64,000 nt of DNA, from assembly GCA_937958265.1 (NCBI GenBank), contig CALGNX010000018.1, positions 43,311 to 107,310 of the forward strand, read 5' to 3'. This stretch comes from an uncultured Algibacter sp. Its GTDB lineage: Bacteria > Bacteroidota > Bacteroidia > Flavobacteriales > Flavobacteriaceae. Below, piece after piece: positions 2,311-63,835 of the stretch. A model generated the notes under the pieces. That model had not been told where the DNA came from and ran no database searches. It saw nothing but the letters and a program-made list of their open reading frames with translations. Within the stretch, counting starts at the first letter, position 1; every line of letters begins with the position of its first letter. The position numbers and the translations under genes were made by a program.

Positions 2311-4434
2311 ATGATATCCTATATAATTAAAAACACCAAACTTCCAGAAACCGCAGTAAAAAACACAGTTGCACTTTTAAATGAAGACTGTACCATCCCG
2401 TTTATTTCGCGTTACAGAAAAGAGCGTACAGGTAATTTAGATGAAGTTCAAATAGGCGATATTATAAAATTTAAAGAGCAATTTGAAGCCTTAGAAAAAC
2501 GTAAAAAAGCGATTTTAAAAGCACTGGAAGAACAGGACGTTTTAACCTCCGAATTAAAACTAAAAGTTACATCATCTCACGATTTAACTGCCCTTGAAGA
2601 TTTATACTTACCCTTTAAAAAAAGTAGAAAAACAAAAGCAGAAAAGGCAAGACAAAACGGTTTGGAACCCTTAGCTAAAATCATTATGGCTCAAAATGCC
2701 AATAATTTAGAATCTGTAGCTTTTAAATATGTAAAAGATGAAATACATTCTGTTAAAGATGCCTTAGAAGGTGCACGCCATATTATTGCAGAGTGGATTA
2801 ACGAGCGTTCTGATATTCGCAATAACATACGTAAACAGCTAGAACGTAGCGCTATAATTTCAACCAAAGTAATAAAGAAAAAAGCCAACGATGAAACTGC
2901 ACAAAAATTTAGAGATTATTTTGAATGGGAAGAAAACTTAAGTCGTATACCATCACACCGCCTACTCGCCATTTTAAGAGCTGAAAAAGAAAATTTTATT
3001 CGTGTAAAAATAGAAATAGATAATGAAAAGGCATTAGATACTATTTCGCGCCGCATAATAAAAAGTAATAACGCTTGCGCAGAAGAGATAAAACTAGCAA
3101 TTAAAGATGCTTTTAAACGCTTATTATTCCCATCTTTAAGCAACGACGCTTTACAAACCGTAAAAGATAAAGCCGACGCATCTGCAATACACGTATTTGC
3201 AAACAACCTAAAACAATTATTATTAGGAGCGCCATTAGGCGAAAAACAAGTACTAGCAATAGATCCGGGATTTAAGTCTGGTTGCAAATTGGTGTGTTTA
3301 GGTGCGCAAGGGGAATTGCAATATAACGAAACCATATATCCGCACCCGCCACAAAATGCTAGCGCTAGTGCTATTAAAAAAATAATAGCACTTTGCGAAA
3401 CACATAATATTGAAGCTATAGCCATTGGAAATGGTACTGCATCTCGAGAAACTGAAGCTTTAATTAAGCAAATCGACTTCAAAAACGACATTCAAGTTTT
3501 TGTGGTTAGTGAAGCCGGAGCAAGTATCTATTCAGCATCAAAAATAGCACGTGAAGAATTTCCAAATTATGATATTACCGTACGCGGTTCAATTTCCATT
3601 GGTAGGCGCTTGCAAGACCCTTTAGCCGAGTTAGTTAAAATTGATGCAAAATCAATTGGTGTTGGTCAATACCAGCATGATGTGGACCAAACAAAACTTC
3701 AAAAAGAACTAAATAATGTAGTAGAAAACTGCGTGAATGCAGTAGGTGTAAATATAAACACAGCCAGTAAACCTTTACTAAGCGCTGTATCTGGTATTGG
3801 ACCAAAACTAGCAGAAAATATTTTCAATTATAAAATAACGCATGGTGTTTTTAAAGATAGAAACGACATAAAAAAAGTACCTCGTTTAGGCGCTAAAGCC
3901 TTTCAGCAAGGCGCAGCTTTTTTAAGAATAAAGAATCCTAAAAACCCATTAGACGATTCTGCAGTACACCCAGAAAGTTATACTATTGTTACATCAATGG
4001 CGAAAGATTTAGAAAAATCTGTAACAGATTTAATAGGTAACCCTAAGTTGCTTCAAAAACTAAATTTAAAAAAATACTGTACAGCAAATGTAGGTTTACC
4101 AACCCTAGAAGATATTATTAAAGAGTTAGAAAAACCAGGTTTGGATATTCGTGAGCAAGCTAAAGTTTTCACATTCAACCAAAACATAAAAATCCTTACC
4201 GATTTAAAAGCAGGCCAAATACTGCCAGGTATTGTTAATAACATTACCAATTTTGGATGTTTTGTGGATATTGGTATTAAAGAAAGTGGTTTAATTCATG
4301 TCTCTAATTTGTCCGACAGCTTTGTAAAAGATGTAAACGCACACGTACATTTACAACAACAAATAACAGTAAAAGTTTTAGAGGTTGATGTTCCGCGAAA
4401 GCGCATACAGCTAAAACTAGTAAAAGTAAAATGA
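2311..4434 (+). CDS. tex: Tex, S1-domain RNA-binding transcription accessory protein
   Basis: A 707-aa full-length Tex protein. Visible parts in order are the N-terminal Tex helical domain with IPFISRYRKERTG near residue 30, a YqgF/RNase H-like domain starting at about residue 320 (LAIDPGFKSGCK), a helix-hairpin-helix region (SAVSGIGPKLAENI, about 492-505) and a C-terminal S1 domain (GIVNNITNFGCFVDIG, about 636-650). Tex binds nucleic acids and affects transcription and transcription-repair in other bacteria. It acts in the cytoplasm. A TAnnTTTG box at 2277 lies 27 bases upstream of the ATG. The antisense ORFs in the track are shadows. Confidence 0.95.
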   Translation: MISYIIKNTKLPETAVKNTVALLNEDCTIPFISRYRKERTGNLDEVQIGDIIKFKEQFEALEKRKKAILKALEEQDVLTSELKLKVTSSHDLTALEDLYLPFKKSRKTKAEKARQNGLEPLAKIIMAQNANNLESVAFKYVKDEIHSVKDALEGARHIIAEWINERSDIRNNIRKQLERSAIISTKVIKKKANDETAQKFRDYFEWEENLSRIPSHRLLAILRAEKENFIRVKIEIDNEKALDTISRRIIKSNNACAEEIKLAIKDAFKRLLFPSLSNDALQTVKDKADASAIHVFANNLKQLLLGAPLGEKQVLAIDPGFKSGCKLVCLGAQGELQYNETIYPHPPQNASASAIKKIIALCETHNIEAIAIGNGTASRETEALIKQIDFKNDIQVFVVSEAGASIYSASKIAREEFPNYDITVRGSISIGRRLQDPLAELVKIDAKSIGVGQYQHDVDQTKLQKELNNVVENCVNAVGVNINTASKPLLSAVSGIGPKLAENIFNYKITHGVFKDRNDIKKVPRLGAKAFQQGAAFLRIKNPKNPLDDSAVHPESYTIVTSMAKDLEKSVTDLIGNPKLLQKLNLKKYCTANVGLPTLEDIIKELEKPGLDIREQAKVFTFNQNIKILTDLKAGQILPGIVNNITNFGCFVDIGIKESGLIHVSNLSDSFVKDVNAHVHLQQQITVKVLEVDVPRKRIQLKLVKVK

Positions 4435-4447
4435 TTTATTAAAAGAA

Positions 4448-4741
4448 ATGAAAAAAGTAAAAACTACACTTGCCATTGGCATTTTTAGTATTTCTATATT
4501 TCCAATACTAGCCAAGCTAAGCCAAACGCCCGATGTCGTTTCGGTACTTTACAGTATGTTGCCTTTCTTGCTACTTTTACTACCTTACGCTTTAATAACA
4601 CAACAATTTAAAATACAAAAATTAAAAACATTTGATCCAACTACATTGTGTGATATTATTTTTAGCAGTCATTTAGCTGTTTGGAATATTGCCATACAAG
4701 AGCCCTCTACAACCCAAGTATCTTTATTACCAAATTTATAA
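4448..4741 (+). pseudogene. Truncated EamA/DMT-type transporter remnant
   Basis: This 97-aa ORF begins with two hydrophobic segments and ends in HLAVWNIAIQEPS...SLLPNL. That resembles the third to fourth helix region of EamA drug/metabolite transporters (pattern H-[FL]-A-x-W-x-x-A-[LI]-x-x-[TS]-S...L). The family is about 290 aa with ten helices, and only the first third remains. The following 150 bases contain no continuation in any frame that I can see. It starts 13 bases after tex. I read it as a decayed transporter gene; a real small membrane protein is the alternative. Confidence 0.5.
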
Positions 4742-4890
4742 CGTATTTAGGTTGGTAGTTTAGCCTAAAAATCTATTAATAAAGTAATAACGCTCCAAAT
4801 AATAATTCGCAGTTTTATATTACTAACAATAATATGCTTTACCTTTTACACAAAACAATTACTCACCAAACATAAAAACACTTAGTTTTA

Positions 4891-5793
4891 ATGCTAAAAA
4901 TAGCTAACCATAACATATACAAACACCCATTACCAGACGAACATCGCTTCCCGATGATTAAATACGAGTTACTACCAGAGCAATTACTGTATGAAGGCAC
5001 TTGTACACCCAACAATTTTTTTAAGCCAAACATACCTAATAACCAACATATATTACGCGCGCATACTGCTAGCTATTATAAAGACTTACAAAACTTAACA
5101 CTAGATGCTAGAGCCGCCAGAAAAATAGGTTTTCCATTAAGTACAGCCCTTATAAAACGTGAACTTATTATTGCAGATGGCACCATTAAAGCTAGTGCTT
5201 TTGCTTTAAAATATGGTATTGCCATGAATATTGCAGGCGGCACACACCACGCCTATTCTAACCGAGGCGAAGCGTTTTGCATGTTAAACGACCAAGCCAT
5301 TGGCTCACATTATTTATTACACAAACAATTAGCTAAAAAAATTTTAATTGTAGATTTGGATGTACACCAAGGTAATGGAACCGCAGAAATTTTCCAAAAC
5401 AACAGTAGTGTATTCACTTTTTCTATGCACGGTAAAGGTAACTACCCTTTTAAAAAAGAGCAAAGCAGTTTAGATATCGCTTTAGAAAACCATACTGATG
5501 ATACTACCTATCTGCGCATACTAAAAGAAACCCTACCAAAATTAATCGACACACAAAAACCCGATTTTATTTACTATCTATGCGGTGTCGATGTGCTTGC
5601 CACAGATAAATTAGGTAAACTAGGCATGACGGTTCACGGCTGTAAAACCCGCGATCGTTTTGTTCTAGAAACTTGCAAAAAAAACCAAATACCTGTAATG
5701 TGCTCTATGGGTGGTGGCTACTCTCCCGATATTAAAATTATTATTGAAGCACATGCCAATACTTTCCGTTTAGCACAAGACCTCTATTTTTAA
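4891..5793 (+). CDS. Histone deacetylase-family amidohydrolase
   Basis: A 300-aa protein of the arginase/deacetylase superfamily. It shows GGTHHA (about residues 115-120, the active-site His pair), DLDVHQGNGT (about 155-164, zinc Asp and His) and GVDVL in the second metal region. Bacterial members (AcuC or acetylpolyamine amidohydrolase-like) remove acetyl groups from lysine or small amines. The substrate is not fixed by sequence. It is cytoplasmic and probably monocistronic, facing the TerB-like gene across a shared bidirectional terminator. Confidence 0.9.
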   Translation: MLKIANHNIYKHPLPDEHRFPMIKYELLPEQLLYEGTCTPNNFFKPNIPNNQHILRAHTASYYKDLQNLTLDARAARKIGFPLSTALIKRELIIADGTIKASAFALKYGIAMNIAGGTHHAYSNRGEAFCMLNDQAIGSHYLLHKQLAKKILIVDLDVHQGNGTAEIFQNNSSVFTFSMHGKGNYPFKKEQSSLDIALENHTDDTTYLRILKETLPKLIDTQKPDFIYYLCGVDVLATDKLGKLGMTVHGCKTRDRFVLETCKKNQIPVMCSMGGGYSPDIKIIIEAHANTFRLAQDLYF

Positions 5794-5802
5794 AACTATT
5801 GC

Positions 5803-5835
5803 ATAAAAAAAGCACCCTAATGGATGCTTTTAATT
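5803..5835. terminator. Bidirectional terminator between convergent genes
   Basis: AAAAAAAGCACCC and GGATGCTTTT form a stem with one mismatch, with A and T tracts on either side. It lies between the HDAC gene (+) and the TerB-like gene (-). Confidence 0.65.
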
Positions 5836-5854
5836 TATATTGTAATAAAACAAA

Positions 5855-6289
5855 TTACCTATTCATATTTCGTATTGCATCAGAAAAAGTTTCAACATCA
5901 TCCTCGCCAGCAGCAATTAAATTTAAAGCCTTATCTACAACGTATTTTGCATTCTCCGGCTTAAACCCTAAACCAACAGCTATTTTCTCTAATAAAAGAA
6001 CCTGCTGCTCGTCCTTAATACTGTCTGCATATACCATTCGCGCCAAATCAAACAAACGCTCCAAACGTCTATCATAAGTGTTTGGTGGGTTTATAGCATG
6101 CGTACTGTAATTTTTTAAAATTAATTCATAATCAACCTGGCTAATATCTAAATTGCGAGCCAATCTATCCAAAAACTCTTTTTCATCGCTCGTAATAACA
6201 CCGTCAGCCATAGCCACACGTACTATAGCAGCGAAATGACTTTCATTACGCTTTTTAAAACCACTATCAAACAAATCAGAAAACGACAT
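5855..6289 (-). CDS. TerB-like domain protein
   Basis: A 144-aa cytoplasmic protein made almost wholly of a TerB/DjlA-N-type helical domain. The acidic motif MADGVITSDEKEFL (about residues 27-40) is repeated in degenerate form in the second half (MVYADSIKDEQQVLLLEKI). TerB proteins bind divalent metal and are linked with tellurite and membrane stress. No other ter gene is next to it, so the role is open. Dispersed repeat copy A lies 68 bases upstream of its start. Confidence 0.8.
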   Translation of the reverse strand: MSFSDLFDSGFKKRNESHFAAIVRVAMADGVITSDEKEFLDRLARNLDISQVDYELILKNYSTHAINPPNTYDRRLERLFDLARMVYADSIKDEQQVLLLEKIAVGLGFKPENAKYVVDKALNLIAAGEDDVETFSDAIRNMNR

Positions 6290-6356
6290 ATCTTATTTTT
6301 TAAGGACGCAAAATTACATTTTTTTTTCAAATTTTTAGTTGAAATTTCAATTATTT

Positions 6357-6456
6357 GGGCGTTACCCAAGGGTCAGGCTTTCGGCAGTCGCTTTTTTGTG
6401 TTGCATAAGTGCAACAACACAAAAAGAGCTTCAACAAACGCCTCAATCCTTAACGC
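6357..6456 (-). repeat. Dispersed flavobacterial intergenic repeat, copy A
   Basis: Read on the minus strand the element opens with GCGTTA and closes with TAACGCCC. Inside is a hairpin with TTTTTGTGTTGCA / TGCAAC-ACACAAAAA arms. The GGGTCaGGCTTTC block is shared with copies B, C and D. It lies between the TerB-like gene and the ABM gene, and its minus-strand orientation matches both. Confidence 0.75.
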
Positions 6457-6629
6457 AGATCCTTTATGTAAAATTAATTACCTAAATCTATATTTAAAAT
6501 TACTGTTTAATAAATTTAATATTTTTTTTACAAAAAAATATAGCCGTATTAAAGCTATAATTTAATTATTCTCTTAACTAAAAATAAAGCTATGTTTAAT
6601 TACGTTTTTACTAAATAAAATAACATCTC

Positions 6630-6926
6630 CTAACCAATAATTGTCATTTCATTTAAAGTAAAACTTTCAATAGCATCTGCTGTAGCGATAACGTAATCGG
6701 CTAAATGTTTATTTTTCATATGCTTTTGCCATAACAGCTTACTTTCCCAATTTTCATAAAATAAAAACAAATGCTTATTACTATTATCTTGATGTAAATC
6801 GTAATTCACACAACCAGCCTCTGCCCTTGTAATAGCAATTAATTTTAACAATTCCTGTTTTACCAAGTCGCTTTGGCCTTCCTTAGCTAAAATATTAGCT
6901 AAAATAGTTAATTGTTTTTCCTTCAT
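6630..6926 (-). CDS. Antibiotic biosynthesis monooxygenase (ABM) domain protein
   Basis: A 98-aa ferredoxin-like ABM protein. The pattern is typical: a first strand (LTILANILAKEG), helix, then EAGCVNYDLHQD, FLFYENWES and H...H in the second half. I chose the ATG at 6926 (MKEKQL) over the longer ORF because it begins directly before the first conserved strand. Relatives such as YgiN and HmoB act on quinones or haem, or have unknown substrates. It appears monocistronic. Confidence 0.85.
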   Translation of the reverse strand: MKEKQLTILANILAKEGQSDLVKQELLKLIAITRAEAGCVNYDLHQDNSNKHLFLFYENWESKLLWQKHMKNKHLADYVIATADAIESFTLNEMTIIG

Positions 6927-57427: not shown

Positions 57428-57868
57428 ATGGCATTAAACACAAACAAAGCCTTAACACTATTTAACCCAAAAACAATCGATGGTTTTGGAGCACTTTTTT
57501 TCGACACCGGAATTTCAGCAGGATTCCCAGCACCAACCGAAGATTTTAACCAACAACACCTATCCTTAGATAACGAACTTGTAAAGAATAAAGAAACAAC
57601 TTTTTACGCACGAGTTAGCGGACAATCCATGATTGGAGCGGGCCTTGATGATAATGATTTATTGGTAATTGATAGAAGCATTACACCTACCAATAATAAA
57701 ATAGCAGTCTGCTTTTTAGATGGTGAATTTACAGTAAAGCGCTTAAGAGTTGACAAGGACGGCATGTGGTTAAAACCAGAAAACCCTAACTACCCTATTA
57801 TAAAAATAACAAAAGCTAATAACTTTGTTATATGGGGCATTGTAACTAATGTTATTAAAAAAGTATAG
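57428..57868 (+). CDS. umuD: UmuD-like S24 peptidase (orphan)
   Basis: A 146-aa LexA/UmuD-type protein: self-cleavage region near AGFPAPTEDF (about residues 31-40; a Gly-x-Pro rather than the Ala-Gly or Cys-Gly bond), catalytic Ser in VSGQSMIGAG (about 62-71) and Lys in FTVKRL (about 103). It becomes part of the DNA polymerase V mutasome after cleavage. umuC normally follows in one operon but is absent here; the next gene is a symporter. Confidence 0.9.
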   Translation: MALNTNKALTLFNPKTIDGFGALFFDTGISAGFPAPTEDFNQQHLSLDNELVKNKETTFYARVSGQSMIGAGLDDNDLLVIDRSITPTNNKIAVCFLDGEFTVKRLRVDKDGMWLKPENPNYPIIKITKANNFVIWGIVTNVIKKV

Positions 57869-58100: not shown

Positions 58101-59831
58101 ATGGTAAATCTATCGGGCTTAGATATTACAATAATTATCGCTTTTTTTACAGTTACCCTTTTTATAGGTATTTGGGTCTCAAAAAAATCAGGAAAAAATT
58201 CTGAAGAGTTTTTTTTGTCGGGCAGAAATATGCCTTGGTGGTTATTAGGCGTATCGATGGTAGCTACAACTTTTGCCGCAGACACGCCTGGTTTAGTTAC
58301 CGAGTTGGTTAGAAAAAATGGTGTTTCTGGCAATTGGGTTTGGTGGGCCATGTTACTAACCGGTATGCTTACCGTATTTTTTTATGCAAAGCTTTGGCGT
58401 AAATCAGGTATTTCTACAGATTTGGAATTTTACGAACTACGCTATTCCGGAAAGTCTGCTAGTTTTTTAAGAGGCTTTCGTGCCATATACTTAGGTGTTA
58501 TTTTTAATATAATTACAATGGCTGGCGTATGCTTAGCCGGTGCTAAAATCGCAAATATATTATTAGATATCTCCCAACAAGAAGCCCTTTTATATTCGTC
58601 CATAATTGTTGTTATTTATTCATCGCTAGGCGGGTTAAAAGGTGTTTTAATAACCGATTTTCTACAGTTTATAATTGCTATGGTAGGCTCAATTTGGGCC
58701 ACAGTTTATATTGTAAACCTGCCCGAAATTGGTGGTATGCAAAATTTACTAGCACACCAAAATGTGGCAGATAAATTAGATATTTTACCAGATTTCTCAA
58801 ATTCCGAAGCCTTAATAACCTTATTTATTATTCCTTTTGCAGTGCAATGGTGGAGTACTTGGTACCCAGGAGCAGAACCTGGAGGCGGTGGCTATATTGC
58901 CCAACGTATGTTAGCTGCTAAAGACGAGAAAAATGCGACTTGGGCCACCTTATTTTTTAACTTCGCGCACTACGCTCTGCGCCCTTGGCCATGGATTGTG
59001 GTAGGCTTAGCCTCGTTGGTTATCTTCCCTACTCTGGAAAGTATTAATACAGCATTCCCAAATTTAAACGAAGATATGCAAGGCCATGATGTGGCTTACG
59101 CTGCCATGATGACGTATTTGCCTGCCGGTTTAATAGGTATTGTTTTAACCTCGTTAATTGCAGCATTTATGAGCACAATTTCTACACAATTAAACTGGGG
59201 AAGCTCCTATATAGTAAACGATTTTTACAGCCGATTTTTAAATAAAAAGGCTTCAGAAAAACAGAAAGTAAGCGTTGGTAGAATCTCAACAGTTGCGCTT
59301 ATGGTTTGTGCAGCCTTATTTTCTTTTTATATAAAATCGGCTAAAGATGTATTCGATTTATTACTTCAAATAGGTGCAGGTACAGGCCTATTATTTATTA
59401 TGCGCTGGTTCTGGAATCGTATAAACCCCTATAGCGAAATTGCAGCTATGAGTATTTCATTTATAATTGCTATCGTATTTTTTATTAATGGAAAACTAGA
59501 AACGCCTTGGTTTAAAATACCTGGCTATATACAATTGGTTTATGGTGTTATAATAACTACTATAGGCTGGGTTACAGTAACACTTTTAACAGACCAAAGC
59601 GATACAGAAACCCTAATAAAATTCGAAGCTTTAGTTTATGGAAACGACAGTAAGTTTAAAAATATAGGTTATAAAATTCTTGCTTTCTTTTTAGGTGTTA
59701 TAGGCACATACAGTGTTTTATTTGCAACAGGCTATTTTATTTATGGCAAAACCATGTTAGCCTTTAGTTTAACAGGTGTAGCTACCTTATGCTGTTTATT
59801 ACTAATTAAAAACTGGAAAAAAATTGTGTAA
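58101..59831 (+). CDS. Sodium:solute symporter family transporter
   Basis: A 576-aa membrane protein with about 14 helices and the SSS family motif set (VSKKSGKNSEEFFLSGRNMPWW, GLVTELVRKNG and the sodium-site helix ISTQLNWGSSY). It moves a solute with Na+; the substrate cannot be told. The speD gene begins 3 bases after its stop, so the two are coupled, which makes a polyamine, amino acid or similar organic cation plausible. Confidence 0.9.
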   Translation: MVNLSGLDITIIIAFFTVTLFIGIWVSKKSGKNSEEFFLSGRNMPWWLLGVSMVATTFAADTPGLVTELVRKNGVSGNWVWWAMLLTGMLTVFFYAKLWRKSGISTDLEFYELRYSGKSASFLRGFRAIYLGVIFNIITMAGVCLAGAKIANILLDISQQEALLYSSIIVVIYSSLGGLKGVLITDFLQFIIAMVGSIWATVYIVNLPEIGGMQNLLAHQNVADKLDILPDFSNSEALITLFIIPFAVQWWSTWYPGAEPGGGGYIAQRMLAAKDEKNATWATLFFNFAHYALRPWPWIVVGLASLVIFPTLESINTAFPNLNEDMQGHDVAYAAMMTYLPAGLIGIVLTSLIAAFMSTISTQLNWGSSYIVNDFYSRFLNKKASEKQKVSVGRISTVALMVCAALFSFYIKSAKDVFDLLLQIGAGTGLLFIMRWFWNRINPYSEIAAMSISFIIAIVFFINGKLETPWFKIPGYIQLVYGVIITTIGWVTVTLLTDQSDTETLIKFEALVYGNDSKFKNIGYKILAFFLGVIGTYSVLFATGYFIYGKTMLAFSLTGVATLCCLLLIKNWKKIV

Positions 59832-59834
59832 TTT

Positions 59835-60209
59835 ATGAATGCATTTTTAGGCCATCAGACCACAGTAGATTTTTACGGTTGTAAATCTAATAAAATAAAC
59901 TCCTGCGAATTTATTGAACAAACCCTTTTAAAGGCTGCTAAAATATTAAAACTTACGGTAGTTAATACAACCATACACTCTTTTTCGCCAATAGGCGTTA
60001 GCGGTGTTATTGTTATTAAAGAAAGTCATATTGCCATACACACCTGGCCTGAGCATAATTATATTGCTATCGATTTTTTCACATGTAATAATACCTATAA
60101 TTTAAAGGCGGGTCTTATTTGGCTAAAAACAGAGTTTCAAGCAGAGCACTTTAACTCTAAAGAAATTAAACGCGGTAGCCTAAAAGTTATTCAAGATTTT
60201 AAAAGCTAA
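59835..60209 (+). CDS. speD: S-adenosylmethionine decarboxylase proenzyme
   Basis: A 124-aa class 1b AdoMetDC with the family core FSPIGVSGVIVIKESHIAIH and the cleavage pair E63-S64 that yields the pyruvoyl group; H69 and C84 are the expected catalytic partners. It makes decarboxylated AdoMet, the aminopropyl donor. A membrane-bound aminopropyltransferase is encoded four genes downstream. It is tightly packed between a symporter and an ion channel gene. Confidence 0.93.
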   Translation: MNAFLGHQTTVDFYGCKSNKINSCEFIEQTLLKAAKILKLTVVNTTIHSFSPIGVSGVIVIKESHIAIHTWPEHNYIAIDFFTCNNTYNLKAGLIWLKTEFQAEHFNSKEIKRGSLKVIQDFKS

Positions 60210-60212
60210 CAT

Positions 60213-61028
60213 ATGGAAATAAAACATAATATATTTCTACTAATAGATAGCGAAAAAGGAAATAAAAAAGGCGATTATCTTGTAGAGTATGTAATTTCCG
60301 GATTAATTTTACTTAATGTTATTGCTATTTTTTTAGAGTCGTATAAATCTATAAACACAAAATATAGCACCTTATTTTATGCTATAGAAATGGTATCGAT
60401 TATTGTTTTTTCCATAGAATATTTGGTAAGAATTTGGGTTGCAGATTTACAATACCCTAAACTAACACCTACAAAAGCACGGTTAAAATATATATTCTCC
60501 TTTTTAGGAGTTGTCGATTTATTATCCATTCTACCCTTCTATTTACCTTTTATAATAACTATTGATTTAAGAGTTATGCGCGTTTTAAGGCTTTTACGTT
60601 TGCTAAGATTATTAAAACTTAACAGACATTCTAAATCGCTACAATTAATAGGTACGGTACTTAAAAATACCAGAAACGATATATTAGTTACCGTATTTAT
60701 GGTCTTTATTTTACTCGTTTTAGCCTCTACGCTTATGTATAACCTGGAAAACGAAGCACAGCCCGATGCTTTTGAGAATATTGGGCAAGCACTTTGGTGG
60801 GCAGTAGCTACATTAACAACCGTTGGCTACGGCGACATTTACCCCATAACCGGTTTAGGCAAACTACTTAGCGGCGTTATTGCTTTATTAGGTATTGGTA
60901 TTGTTGCACTACCTACAGGTATAATAAGTTCAGCTTATATCGAAGAGGTACAAAAACAGAAAGAGAAGAATAAGAAAAAACGAGACACATATGCCTGCCC
61001 AAAATGTGGCGAACAGATAAATACATAA
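60213..61028 (+). CDS. Voltage-gated-type potassium (cation) channel
   Basis: A 271-aa six-helix channel: S4 with regularly spaced Arg (RVMRVLRLLRLLRLLK), selectivity filter TLTTVGYGDIYP (about residues 205-216), S6, then a basic coiled segment and a C-terminal single CxxC (YACPKCGEQIN). The filter TVGYGD is that of K+ channels. Intracellular polyamines block or rectify several K+ channels, which gives a possible link with speD and the aminopropyltransferase in the same operon. Confidence 0.92.
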   Translation: MEIKHNIFLLIDSEKGNKKGDYLVEYVISGLILLNVIAIFLESYKSINTKYSTLFYAIEMVSIIVFSIEYLVRIWVADLQYPKLTPTKARLKYIFSFLGVVDLLSILPFYLPFIITIDLRVMRVLRLLRLLRLLKLNRHSKSLQLIGTVLKNTRNDILVTVFMVFILLVLASTLMYNLENEAQPDAFENIGQALWWAVATLTTVGYGDIYPITGLGKLLSGVIALLGIGIVALPTGIISSAYIEEVQKQKEKNKKKRDTYACPKCGEQINT

Positions 61029-61034
61029 CAGATT

Positions 61035-61523
61035 ATGTTTAGTAAAAAAGAAAATTCTAAATTAGATAAGTTACAAGAAGGCTACACTCTAAAAATAAAA
61101 GAAATAATTTGGGTTATAACAGAAATTGCAGAGTACGATTGGGGTAGCAATGGAAGAAGTATTGAATACACAATAACTTCAAAAGATAAAAATGAAAACG
61201 CTTTTCTAGAGGTTGAAGTAATAAAAGGCAATTATGAAGTATATTTTAGCAAGACCGCTTTTATAGACCATACTGTTTTGAAGGCTGCTATTGATACTAA
61301 GGAAATACACTATTTGGGGAATGTATTCTTATTAGAAGAAGATTACAAAGGGGCTTACAAAAATTTAACAAATGGTGGTTCATGGGAAAAATTAGAATCC
61401 TTTATGTTTTATAACAAAAATGAAGCTATTTTGACTATTGAAGATTGGGGCGAACACAATTTTGAGGCTTTTTATGGTGAAGAAATAAAAGCAAAAAACA
61501 TAAAGCATATAAACAACTTTTAA
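61035..61523 (+). CDS. DUF4178 protein
   Basis: A 162-aa soluble protein with the DUF4178 pattern (LQEGYTLKIKEIIWVITEIAEYDWGSNGRSIEYTI, then a strand pair ending in W(E)KLESFMFYNKNEAILTIEDWGEHNFEAFYGE). DUF4178 proteins are often encoded beside polyamine-type enzymes and membrane proteins, with no proven function. It lies 6 bases from the channel gene and 2 bases from the next. Confidence 0.8.
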   Translation: MFSKKENSKLDKLQEGYTLKIKEIIWVITEIAEYDWGSNGRSIEYTITSKDKNENAFLEVEVIKGNYEVYFSKTAFIDHTVLKAAIDTKEIHYLGNVFLLEEDYKGAYKNLTNGGSWEKLESFMFYNKNEAILTIEDWGEHNFEAFYGEEIKAKNIKHINNF

Positions 61524-61525
61524 TT

Positions 61526-62284
61526 ATGAAAGTATTACAAAACCTGATATTAGCAACCTCAATTACAGTATTAATAGTTTCTTGTGGCAATGTTGAAAGA
61601 GCCGGAGTAAGTGTACCAATTGAGCCTACCGAAGAACTTATTGAAGCGCTTAATGGCACAGAATTTTCTATCGTTTTAAACGATATGAATATTGACGAAC
61701 AAAATGGAAAAGATTTATTTCAGCACAAATACCATGTACTTAAAGTGATAAAAGATGCTTTAATTGTCGATTCGTTAGATTGGCAAACCGTTAACAAAGA
61801 CTTTTTTCTGAAACATGAAAATGATTTGGGCATGGAAATAGTTTCTAACCACAATAATAAACTTTCTAGAGTAGCTAAGCCCGTTGGTTTTGACTGGGCT
61901 GTTGGAAATGAAAAACATGGGCAATGGGAAGTAGAAACAGATAGTACAAAAACAGGTACAGGACCGCAACGAAGCTACTGGCGCCCCCATACTTCGTCGG
62001 GTTTATTTTGGTACTGGATGTTAAGCAGACGCACGTACCAAAGTCATTATGCTGGACATAGAGCCTATAGTAATACAGGCAAAACTTACTATGGGAAAAC
62101 ACAAAACGGCGGGACTACCTACGGCACAAATAGTGCGTATGAAAAAACAAAACGTTCCAACTTTTTTACACGTAGAAATACAAGCGCTACATACAAATCG
62201 TTTACTGCAAGAAAAAGCGCTAGTTCTTCCCGCTATAAGGGAGCTTCAAGCACACGTTCTAAATCTGGAGGTTTCGGTAAATAA
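61526..62284 (+). CDS. Lipoprotein with a Ser/Gly/Arg-rich tail
   Basis: A 252-aa lipoprotein (lipobox IVSC, about residue 20). The N-terminal half is a compact domain (EALNGTEFSIVLNDMNID...VGNEKHGQWE); the C-terminal third is a low-complexity, basic, Ser/Thr/Tyr/Gly-rich tail (RRNTSATYKSFTARKSASSSRYKG pattern) like that of several YgiB/DUF-type envelope proteins. The basic tail could be a substrate or anchor for modification. It is co-transcribed with the polyamine genes. Confidence 0.75.
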   Translation: MKVLQNLILATSITVLIVSCGNVERAGVSVPIEPTEELIEALNGTEFSIVLNDMNIDEQNGKDLFQHKYHVLKVIKDALIVDSLDWQTVNKDFFLKHENDLGMEIVSNHNNKLSRVAKPVGFDWAVGNEKHGQWEVETDSTKTGTGPQRSYWRPHTSSGLFWYWMLSRRTYQSHYAGHRAYSNTGKTYYGKTQNGGTTYGTNSAYEKTKRSNFFTRRNTSATYKSFTARKSASSSRYKGASSTRSKSGGFGK

Positions 62285-62296
62285 ATAAAAAATCAC

Positions 62297-63835
62297 TTGA
62301 AAATTTCAAACAAAAAAAAGTCATTTGTATTAAAAGCAGCTTTGTTCGCTACAGGGTTTAGTGGTATAGTTGCAGAATATATACTCTCCACATTAGCATC
62401 CTATTTTATAGGCAATGCTATTTTACAGTTTACCCTTATTGTTTCCATCATGTTATTTTCAATGGGTCTAGGGAGCAGATTAAGCAAATCTTTTAATACA
62501 AACATCATATTCTATTTTGTAATTACAGAATTAATGTTGTCTGTTTTAGTTTCCTTTTCTGCCATAGTTTCTTATTTAATTTACGGTTTTACAAGTGTAT
62601 CTTGGGTTATTATCTATCTACTTTCAATAATAATCGGGCTTCTTATAGGTTTGGAAATACCATTTGCAACAAGAATTAATAATGAATTTGAAGAACTGCG
62701 TTTAAATATTTCCAATATTCTAGAAAAAGATTATTATGGCAGTTTATTAGGCGGCTTGTTTTTTGCATTTGTAGGCTTGCCCTATTTAGGGTTAACCTAC
62801 ACCCCTTTTGTTTTAGGCTTTATTAATTTAATAGTTTCCTTTTGGCTTTTTTATGTATTAAAACAGGAAATTTCAGAGCGTTTAAGACACTTCGTAATAC
62901 TTTTATACATACTTGTTTTTTCAGTAATTTTAATGGGTTTATGTTTTGCTAAACCCTTAGTTATGTTTGGGGAACAAGCTAAATACAAAGATAAAATAGT
63001 ATTTTCCGAACAAACCAAGTATCAAAAAATAGTTATTACTAAATGGAAAAATTGGCATTCTTTATACATAAACGGTAACCAGCAACTCTCCACCTTCGAT
63101 GAGTTTTTATACCACGAACCAATGGTACATACCACGATAGGTATTACTAAAAAACGAGAGCATATTTTAATACTTGGAGGTGGGGATGGTTGTATTGTAA
63201 GAGAGCTACTTAAGTACAAAGATATTGGTACAATTACTTTGGTAGATTTGGATGAAAAAATGATAGCATTAGGCAAAACTAATCCAATTTTCAAAACACT
63301 AAATAATAATGCTTTAAACAGCGATAAATTAGAGACTGCTGTTGCAGATGCCTTTACTTTTCTGGAAAATTCCAACCAACTCTACGATGCTATTTTAGTG
63401 GATTTACCAGATCCTAATAATGTAGATTTGAATAAATTATACACCAAAGAGTTTTATAGTTTATGCTATAATCATTTAGCGGATAATGGCACATTTATTA
63501 CCCAATCCGGGAGTCCTTACTACGCCACAAAAGCATTTTATTGTATTGAAAAGACTTTAAAACATTCTGGATTTTATACACTACCCATGCACAATCAAAT
63601 TTTAACTTTAGGGGAATGGAGCTGGATTATTGGAAAGAAAAAAAAGGTTACACCTGAAGATTTAAATGGCGTAAATTTAAGTGCATTGCATTTAAAGTGG
63701 CTTAACAAAAATAGTCTTTCGGCTCTTACTGCTTTTGGCCATCCATTAGTGGATACTACAGGCATTAAAGTGAATACCATATTTAACCCCAAACTTTATT
63801 TGTATTACAAGGACGGTAACTGGGAGCTATTCTAA
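62297..63835 (+). CDS. Membrane-anchored spermidine synthase-like aminopropyltransferase
   Basis: A 512-aa protein starting at TTG. The N-terminal 215 residues hold six or seven membrane helices (GFSGIVAEYILSTLASYFIGN). The C-terminal part is a spermidine-synthase fold: dcAdoMet-binding ILGGGDGCIVRELLK (about 288-302), VDLDEKMI, and the catalytic ILVDLPDPNNVDLNKLY (about 373-389). It transfers aminopropyl groups at the membrane, with speD supplying the donor; the acceptor is unknown. Confidence 0.93.
   Translation: MKISNKKKSFVLKAALFATGFSGIVAEYILSTLASYFIGNAILQFTLIVSIMLFSMGLGSRLSKSFNTNIIFYFVITELMLSVLVSFSAIVSYLIYGFTSVSWVIIYLLSIIIGLLIGLEIPFATRINNEFEELRLNISNILEKDYYGSLLGGLFFAFVGLPYLGLTYTPFVLGFINLIVSFWLFYVLKQEISERLRHFVILLYILVFSVILMGLCFAKPLVMFGEQAKYKDKIVFSEQTKYQKIVITKWKNWHSLYINGNQQLSTFDEFLYHEPMVHTTIGITKKREHILILGGGDGCIVRELLKYKDIGTITLVDLDEKMIALGKTNPIFKTLNNNALNSDKLETAVADAFTFLENSNQLYDAILVDLPDPNNVDLNKLYTKEFYSLCYNHLADNGTFITQSGSPYYATKAFYCIEKTLKHSGFYTLPMHNQILTLGEWSWIIGKKKKVTPEDLNGVNLSALHLKWLNKNSLSALTAFGHPLVDTTGIKVNTIFNPKLYLYYKDGNWELF

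Follow-up and report, generated by a model that had tools for sequence, protein, structure and literature searches.

The window analysed here, 64,000 nucleotides of contig CALGNX010000018.1 from an uncultured Algibacter sp., contains an operon that joins an S-adenosylmethionine (AdoMet) decarboxylase, SpeD, and a membrane-bound aminopropyltransferase (APT) to a K+ channel (Kch), a DUF4178 protein and a lipoprotein. It represents a minimal form of an AdoMet decarboxylase/APT system already known to be linked to the envelope, and in its best-supported mechanism, to which the sequences lend about an even chance, APT would aminopropylate the C-terminal lysine of the lipoprotein. What is new here is a rule relating the tail of the anchored protein to the linked enzyme: a Lys end accompanies APT and a Gly-Gly end accompanies an ATP-grasp ligase, a pairing which, to our knowledge, has not been stated before in the papers searched.

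Conserved gene order and phyletic spread

The operon comprises six open reading frames (ORFs), all on the + strand, whose checked coordinates (Table 1) leave intergenic gaps of 3, 3, 6, 2 and 12 bases. This bears out the frames, coordinates and small gaps of the six-gene operon described in an earlier note; however, one of its members, an SSS-family symporter, falls outside the conserved unit. In a gene-order survey of 104 APT loci, with 20 distinct loci in the clade of the window and 47 other lipoprotein-linked loci, the order SpeD-Kch-DUF4178-lipoprotein-APT is constant across the 20 clade loci. SpeD itself is found in 19 of these, the exception being a short contig that begins at the channel gene. 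The grouping of these five genes is not due to chance. The symporter is linked in 3/104 loci, namely the window and its two closest relatives; hence, it was rejected as a core part and the conserved unit consists of five genes. Thus the scattering of genes in close relatives, which the earlier note named as grounds for giving up its reading, is seen for the symporter and not for the other five.

Deeper relatives show the order CesT/Tir-PspA-DUF4178-lipoprotein-DUF350-APT-SpeD, in which the channel and a rhomboid protease (linked in 12 loci of the survey) are optional, and in which the lipoprotein and APT are sometimes unlinked while still co-occurring. The DUF4178 gene is present in 66 of the 67 lipoprotein-linked loci. 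None of DUF350, PspA and CesT/Tir occurs in the operons of the 20 window-clade loci, and neither PspA nor DUF350 has a match anywhere in the window's own genome; the module of the window therefore works without both.

In a phylum sample of 395 genomes, with APT called as present at E<=1e-60, the enzyme has a patchy distribution (28 genomes), and it is absent from all 9 same-genus genomes. Its closest copies, at 85-69% identity, come from Algibacter, Flavivirga, Dokdonia, Bizionia, Olleya and Tenacibaculum. With APT missing from the same-genus genomes and its closest copies in other genera, horizontal transfer is only suspected; the GC content is unremarkable. SpeD accompanies APT in 28/28 genomes, as against 52/367 of those lacking APT (Fisher p ~5e-22, a value which, like the other counts given here, ignores shared ancestry among genomes and loci). 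Within the same family and order in this sample, the genomes with SpeD are exactly those with APT.

The lipoprotein and its invariant terminal lysine

The lipoprotein has no Pfam match, and searches of its fold against the PDB, and of both it and the DUF4178 protein against PHROGs, returned no significant match and no match, respectively. In the AlphaFold2 (AF2) model a folded body, with a mean predicted local distance difference test (pLDDT) score of 87, is followed by a low-confidence stretch of the last 20 residues. Gly-Lys-COOH is the end of every one of the 68 distinct lipoproteins from the gene-order survey, most often within GGFGK, and this terminal lysine is the sole invariant Lys column among them. 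The control, 937 further ORFs of 200 amino acids or more from the same loci, has a Lys end in 142 cases and a Gly-Lys end in 10. The window protein has a signal peptide and a lipobox Cys20, and sequence supports an exported, lipid-anchored protein with a flexible tail and an invariant terminal Lys.

The association with APT extends beyond physical linkage. The lipoprotein occurs in 8 of the 395 phylum genomes, all of which encode APT, and where an APT locus lacks an adjacent lipoprotein, one is encoded elsewhere in 18 of 21 genomes, the best copy in each ending in GK. Additionally, a lipoprotein on an Alteromonas plasmid, matched by the lipoprotein profile, ends in SSGK. The lipoprotein tail, which the earlier note suggested as a possible target, hence stands as the best candidate, given the invariant C-terminal Lys and the co-occurrence with APT when unlinked. 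A separate, extra paralogue of the lipoprotein, at locus L157, ends in RRK.

Active site and topology of the aminopropyltransferase

The catalytic domain of APT adopts the spermidine-synthase fold, and inspection of 107 homologues shows that Q263, D268, Y272, E274, D369, D372 and Q403 are conserved in every one. On alignment to Bacillus subtilis SpeE, the tyrosine of the classical acceptor motif IPTYPSG is replaced by L, M or F in all 107. APT thus belongs to the fold and has its catalytic residues, but lacks the putrescine acceptor-site Tyr of a spermidine synthase proper. Since the catalytic residues are kept and the acceptor-motif Tyr is lost, dcAdoMet (decarboxylated AdoMet) chemistry with a changed acceptor is indicated, and the alignments support the assignment of APT as a membrane-anchored, catalytically intact aminopropyltransferase.

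Across the same homologues, loops 1, 3 and 5 between the seven predicted transmembrane (TM) helices carry on average at most 0.12 K/R residues, and loops 0, 2, 4 and 6 about 3. The loop charges and the seven helices together place the N-terminus inside and the catalytic domain outside, making a periplasmic active site likely. Further, sister operons encode FAD amine oxidases with twin-Arg-type signals, mostly with a lipobox Cys, and these export signals point to related chemistry outside the cytosol. No direct report of a periplasmic aminopropyltransferase or of lipoprotein aminopropylation was found in the open-access literature. The amine oxidase genes adjoin the membrane APT in L023, L090, L095, L120-L123, L125, L127, L129 and L162-L166, and are often followed by a gene for a TM protein of ~350 amino acids with no Pfam match.

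Tail ends in a second operon type and in ATP-grasp systems

A second type of APT operon, lacking this lipoprotein, is represented by loci L116-L127 and L162-L166 together with plasmid loci of Novosphingobium, Ensifer, Tritonibacter and Gemmatirosa. When ORFs were picked in one pass by hydrophobicity alone and in another by a Lys end, the loci missed then being read by eye, 20 of the 21 loci were found to encode, near DUF350 or APT, a single-TM peptide with a Lys end. The ends recovered are RFYHK, YHK, HK, GPSHK, SGK, ESGK, VK, RVK, HGK and GGK, and in L127 the Lys-ended peptide is fused to the DUF4178 protein. These peptides extend the pattern to Alphaproteobacteria and Gemmatimonadota.

A parallel set of operons combines a GspS-like ATP-grasp enzyme with a DUF1190-type tail protein, the neighbours being YjfI, PspA, an ion channel or rhomboid, and DUF350. 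Escherichia coli YgiC and YjfC belong here and are peptide-spermidine ligases by RefSeq name, a naming that goes back to Pederick et al. 2023 (cited in PMC12568646). All nine ATP-grasp-linked proteins, i.e., YgiB, YjfM and seven others from Bacteroidota (two), Rhizobium, Sulfitobacter, Pseudomonas, Methylorubrum and Deinococcus, have a Gly-Gly tail end. In both systems the tail end fits the enzyme chemistry, because the tail must offer a carboxylate to a ligase but an amine to an aminopropyltransferase. The window operon contains no GspS-like ATP-grasp gene and its tail ends in GK, which sets it apart from the ATP-grasp ligase systems. At L167 and L168 (about 3000-6700, minus strand) a divergent SpeD gene is grouped with genes for a GspS-like ATP-grasp enzyme and for an envelope tail protein, which ends in SGFGSGKSTRSYGG and SGYGSGRSTRSYGG, respectively; a membrane APT is encoded nearby on the opposite strand.

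SpeD and the polyamine genes of the genome

The SpeD of the window scores 126 bits against TIGR03330 (cut-off 76) and carries the class 1b pyruvoyl/proton-donor signature, and family and signature support its assignment as an intact AdoMet decarboxylase. Neofunctionalised SpeD homologues that use arginine or ornithine exist (PMC10407285); the unbroken co-occurrence with APT in the 28 genomes indirectly favours AdoMet as the substrate here. Two kinds of SpeD variants were noted in related loci. Short, divergent homologues of about 102-121 amino acids (L020, 10565-10879; L021, 7554-7919; L022, 9932-10240) keep the ESH, H and C positions and have lost the normal C-terminal part. Those of L047, L117, L120, L121 and L126 keep the ESH and have a residue other than Cys at the catalytic Cys position (e.g., FDIFLSN); they are possibly altered or inactive decarboxylases.

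The genome itself encodes one SpeD and one APT above the Pfam cut-off. The earlier note had pointed to the lack of an ornithine or arginine decarboxylase nearby, which needs amending, as an arginine decarboxylase is encoded on another contig. There, a speA-speB-deoxyhypusine-synthase-like cluster includes the terminal portion of an arginine decarboxylase together with an enzyme of the agmatinase type and a homologue of deoxyhypusine synthase. This cluster presumably makes putrescine and homospermidine, as expected from the established pathway, and because it is separate from the operon, the bulk triamine would be independent of the latter. A carboxyspermidine route was considered and rejected, since the nspC model gave matches below the cut-off only; no carboxyspermidine decarboxylase was found above the cut-off in this genome. 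In agreement with the earlier note, the operon thus probably does not serve to make bulk spermidine, in light of the invariant terminal Lys, the co-occurrence of unlinked genes, the absence of the putrescine-site Tyr throughout the APTs and the separate homospermidine-type gene set.

Proposed mechanism and its alternatives

Taken as a minimal envelope protein-modification system, the operon could work as follows: SpeD would supply dcAdoMet, and APT would transfer its 3-aminopropyl group to the side-chain amine of the lipoprotein's terminal Lys. The aminobutyl side chain of Lys resembles one end of putrescine, so that the product would bear a spermidine-like side chain. The transfer would probably occur on the periplasmic side, where the tail sits, with dcAdoMet passing to the periplasm perhaps through the 7-TM part of APT itself. 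The DUF4178 protein and the K+ channel probably have an accessory or sensing role and might couple the modified tail to membrane state. Put more generally, membrane APTs with extracytoplasmic active sites may aminopropylate the C-terminal Lys of envelope-anchored proteins, as an undescribed modification found on two scaffolds in several phyla and a counterpart to the Gly-Gly ATP-grasp ligases; this wider proposal is offered tentatively, as falling somewhat short of an even chance.

Several points weigh against this interpretation. The enzymes, export, tail and linkage are evident from sequence, but the chemistry of aminopropyl transfer and the side of the membrane are inferred, and the counts are subject to the shared ancestry mentioned above. 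In the AF2 model of APT, TM5 and TM6 are merged into a single long helix (residues 134-191); with 6 crossings the catalytic domain would lie in the cytosol, such that the lysine would be modifiable only before export. A cytosolic location also fits the three well-conserved Cys of the catalytic domain at least as well. Further, dcAdoMet is made in the cytosol, and a periplasmic APT would need a route for it. Among the tails, an extra lipoprotein paralogue at L156 (1480-2160, minus strand, beside a DUF4178 gene) ends in FFRT and so lacks the terminal Lys, being possibly frameshifted or diverged, and no Lys-ended partner is visible at the APT locus L124. In the genomes of L167 and L168, APT is paired with a GG-ended tail protein and a nearby GspS-like ligase; this ligase-type set near an APT implies that both modification types can coexist. 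Lastly, the C-terminal Lys could have a different function, as a signal for docking or processing.

The intact catalytic residues and spermidine-synthase fold of APT, together with putrescine available from the speA-speB cluster, would also accommodate an enzyme that works at the membrane to make a small polyamine in free form, either spermidine or an aminopropylated homospermidine, for use nearby (e.g., in envelope stabilization), with the lipoprotein only binding or sensing it. This appears unlikely, as the putrescine-site Tyr is absent from every APT, and both the terminal Lys of the lipoprotein and that of the unrelated TM peptides would be left unexplained. A further option, that the acceptor of the aminopropyl group is another envelope molecule, such as an aminolipid or phosphatidylethanolamine, with the lipoprotein tail as a binding or scaffold partner, would suit a membrane-anchored enzyme with a remodelled acceptor site, and the DUF350 and PspA neighbours of the relatives point to membrane homeostasis (PMC11237479). 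It does not lead one to expect that two kinds of anchored protein should share an invariant Lys end, or that tails should split into Gly-Gly and Lys by enzyme type, and is regarded as rather improbable.

The distribution of tail ends bears equally on the possibility that the invariant Lys has nothing to do with aminopropyl transfer and serves as a signal for sorting, a protease or protein docking. C-terminal motifs often act as docking signals, and a rhomboid protease is linked in some loci, but the tail end co-varies with the enzyme, APT going with Lys and ATP-grasp with Gly-Gly, in operons that are otherwise alike, which renders such a signal very improbable. Least credible of all is gating or blocking of the operon-encoded K+ channel by a polyamine product, as raised in the earlier note: polyamines block K+ channels in general, and the channel is present in 20/20 loci of the clade and in 18/47 of the other lipoprotein-linked ones, but only 38 of the 104 APT loci have one, and gating cannot be the general purpose because most other APT loci lack a channel. 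Nothing beyond linkage speaks for it. The channel carries a zinc-ribbon-like tail, CPKCGE (60990-61028 of the window), with CPHCGK and CEHCGK in relatives.

If aminopropylation of the terminal Lys is correct, bacterial envelope proteins would be subject to a polyamine-type modification that gives them a charged, polyamine-like group. Many bacterial AdoMet decarboxylases pair with membrane spermidine-synthase-like enzymes, and the C-terminal Lys offers a concrete single-residue substrate candidate. The Lys/Gly-Gly tail rule would, in that case, also aid the annotation of many DUF350, DUF4178 and DUF1190 operons.

Table 1. Features of the operon, in coordinates of the window
Feature	Position	Strand	Basis
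SSS-family Na+/solute symporter; peripheral, not core	58101..59831	+	PF00474 (SSF), 127 bits
SpeD, class 1b AdoMet decarboxylase (predicted dcAdoMet maker)	59835..60209	+	PF02675 (AdoMet_dc), TIGR03330, ESH-x3-H-x14-C
Ser64 codon, predicted pyruvoyl-forming self-cleavage serine of SpeD	60024..60026	+	signature in 54/59 distinct SpeDs of related loci
6-TM voltage-gated-type K+ channel with C-terminal CPKC zinc-ribbon-like tail	60213..61028	+	PF00520 (Ion_trans), 135 bits
K+ selectivity filter TVGYGD	60819..60836	+	sequence
DUF4178 protein, predicted cytoplasmic	61035..61523	+	PF13785, 43 bits, cut-off 25
Lipoprotein, proposed substrate	61526..62284	+	signal peptide, invariant lipobox Cys20; AF2 model pLDDT 87
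Flexible Ser/Arg-rich C-terminal tail, end SGGFGK-COOH, proposed site terminal Lys252	62222..62281	+	GK end conserved, low pLDDT
Membrane-bound APT, TTG start	62297..63835	+	NF002956, 529 bits, cut-off 472
Seven predicted TM helices of APT, N-in	62330..62950	+	K/R-free loops alternate with K/R-rich loops, 107 homologues
APT catalytic domain, predicted periplasmic	62987..63832	+	spermidine-synthase fold; catalytic residues; positive-inside rule

Comparison with known systems

The classical speD-speE pair comprises the same two enzyme families as SpeD and APT of the window; unlike SpeE, the APT is membrane-bound, has an altered acceptor site and is linked to the lipoprotein and DUF4178. The likeness to the YgiC-YgiB and YjfC-YjfM pairs of E. 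coli lies in an envelope protein with a flexible tail of the RGGFG/RGGYG type beside a polyamine-handling enzyme, and in the recurrence of PspA, DUF350 and ion channel or rhomboid neighbours; the difference lies in the ATP-grasp ligase and Gly-Gly tail end of the former, as against APT and the Lys end in the window.

An AdoMet decarboxylase with an MFS-spermidine-synthase fusion was reportedly described in 2019 by Li as having 'a polyamine-independent role', and such MFS-SpdSyn fusions are said not to have complemented an E. coli spermidine synthase mutant. As far as that system is known from citing papers, the window operon resembles it in pairing SpeD with a membrane-fused spermidine-synthase-like enzyme, and differs in that its APT is of the NF002956/PRK03612 type and scores below the MFS_SpdSyn cut-off. 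We know of no lipoprotein target from that work.

The closest precedent is the set of PspA-CesT/Tir operons with a 7TM-spermidine-synthase fusion, DUF350, lipoprotein and DUF4178 (Ravi 2024, PMC11237479), for which non-polyamine aminopropylation had already been suggested, citing Li 2019. The window operon shares with these the membrane APT, DUF4178 and lipoprotein, and its deeper relatives have the full set with CesT/Tir, PspA and DUF350; in contrast, the window clade has none of these three and has SpeD and the K+ channel instead. The tail rule is not stated in the text seen of that paper.

Neighbouring genes

The end of the window is also the end of the contig, which limits the view downstream of APT. 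Just upstream of the operon, a UmuD/S24-type autoproteolytic protein is encoded at 57428-57868 of the window, with no UmuC next to it. In L030 the same operon is adjoined by a UmuD homologue of equal length, and UmuC-sized ORFs of 416-421 amino acids lie beside the operon in L028, L029 and L035, which suggests a shared neighbourhood or insertion site.

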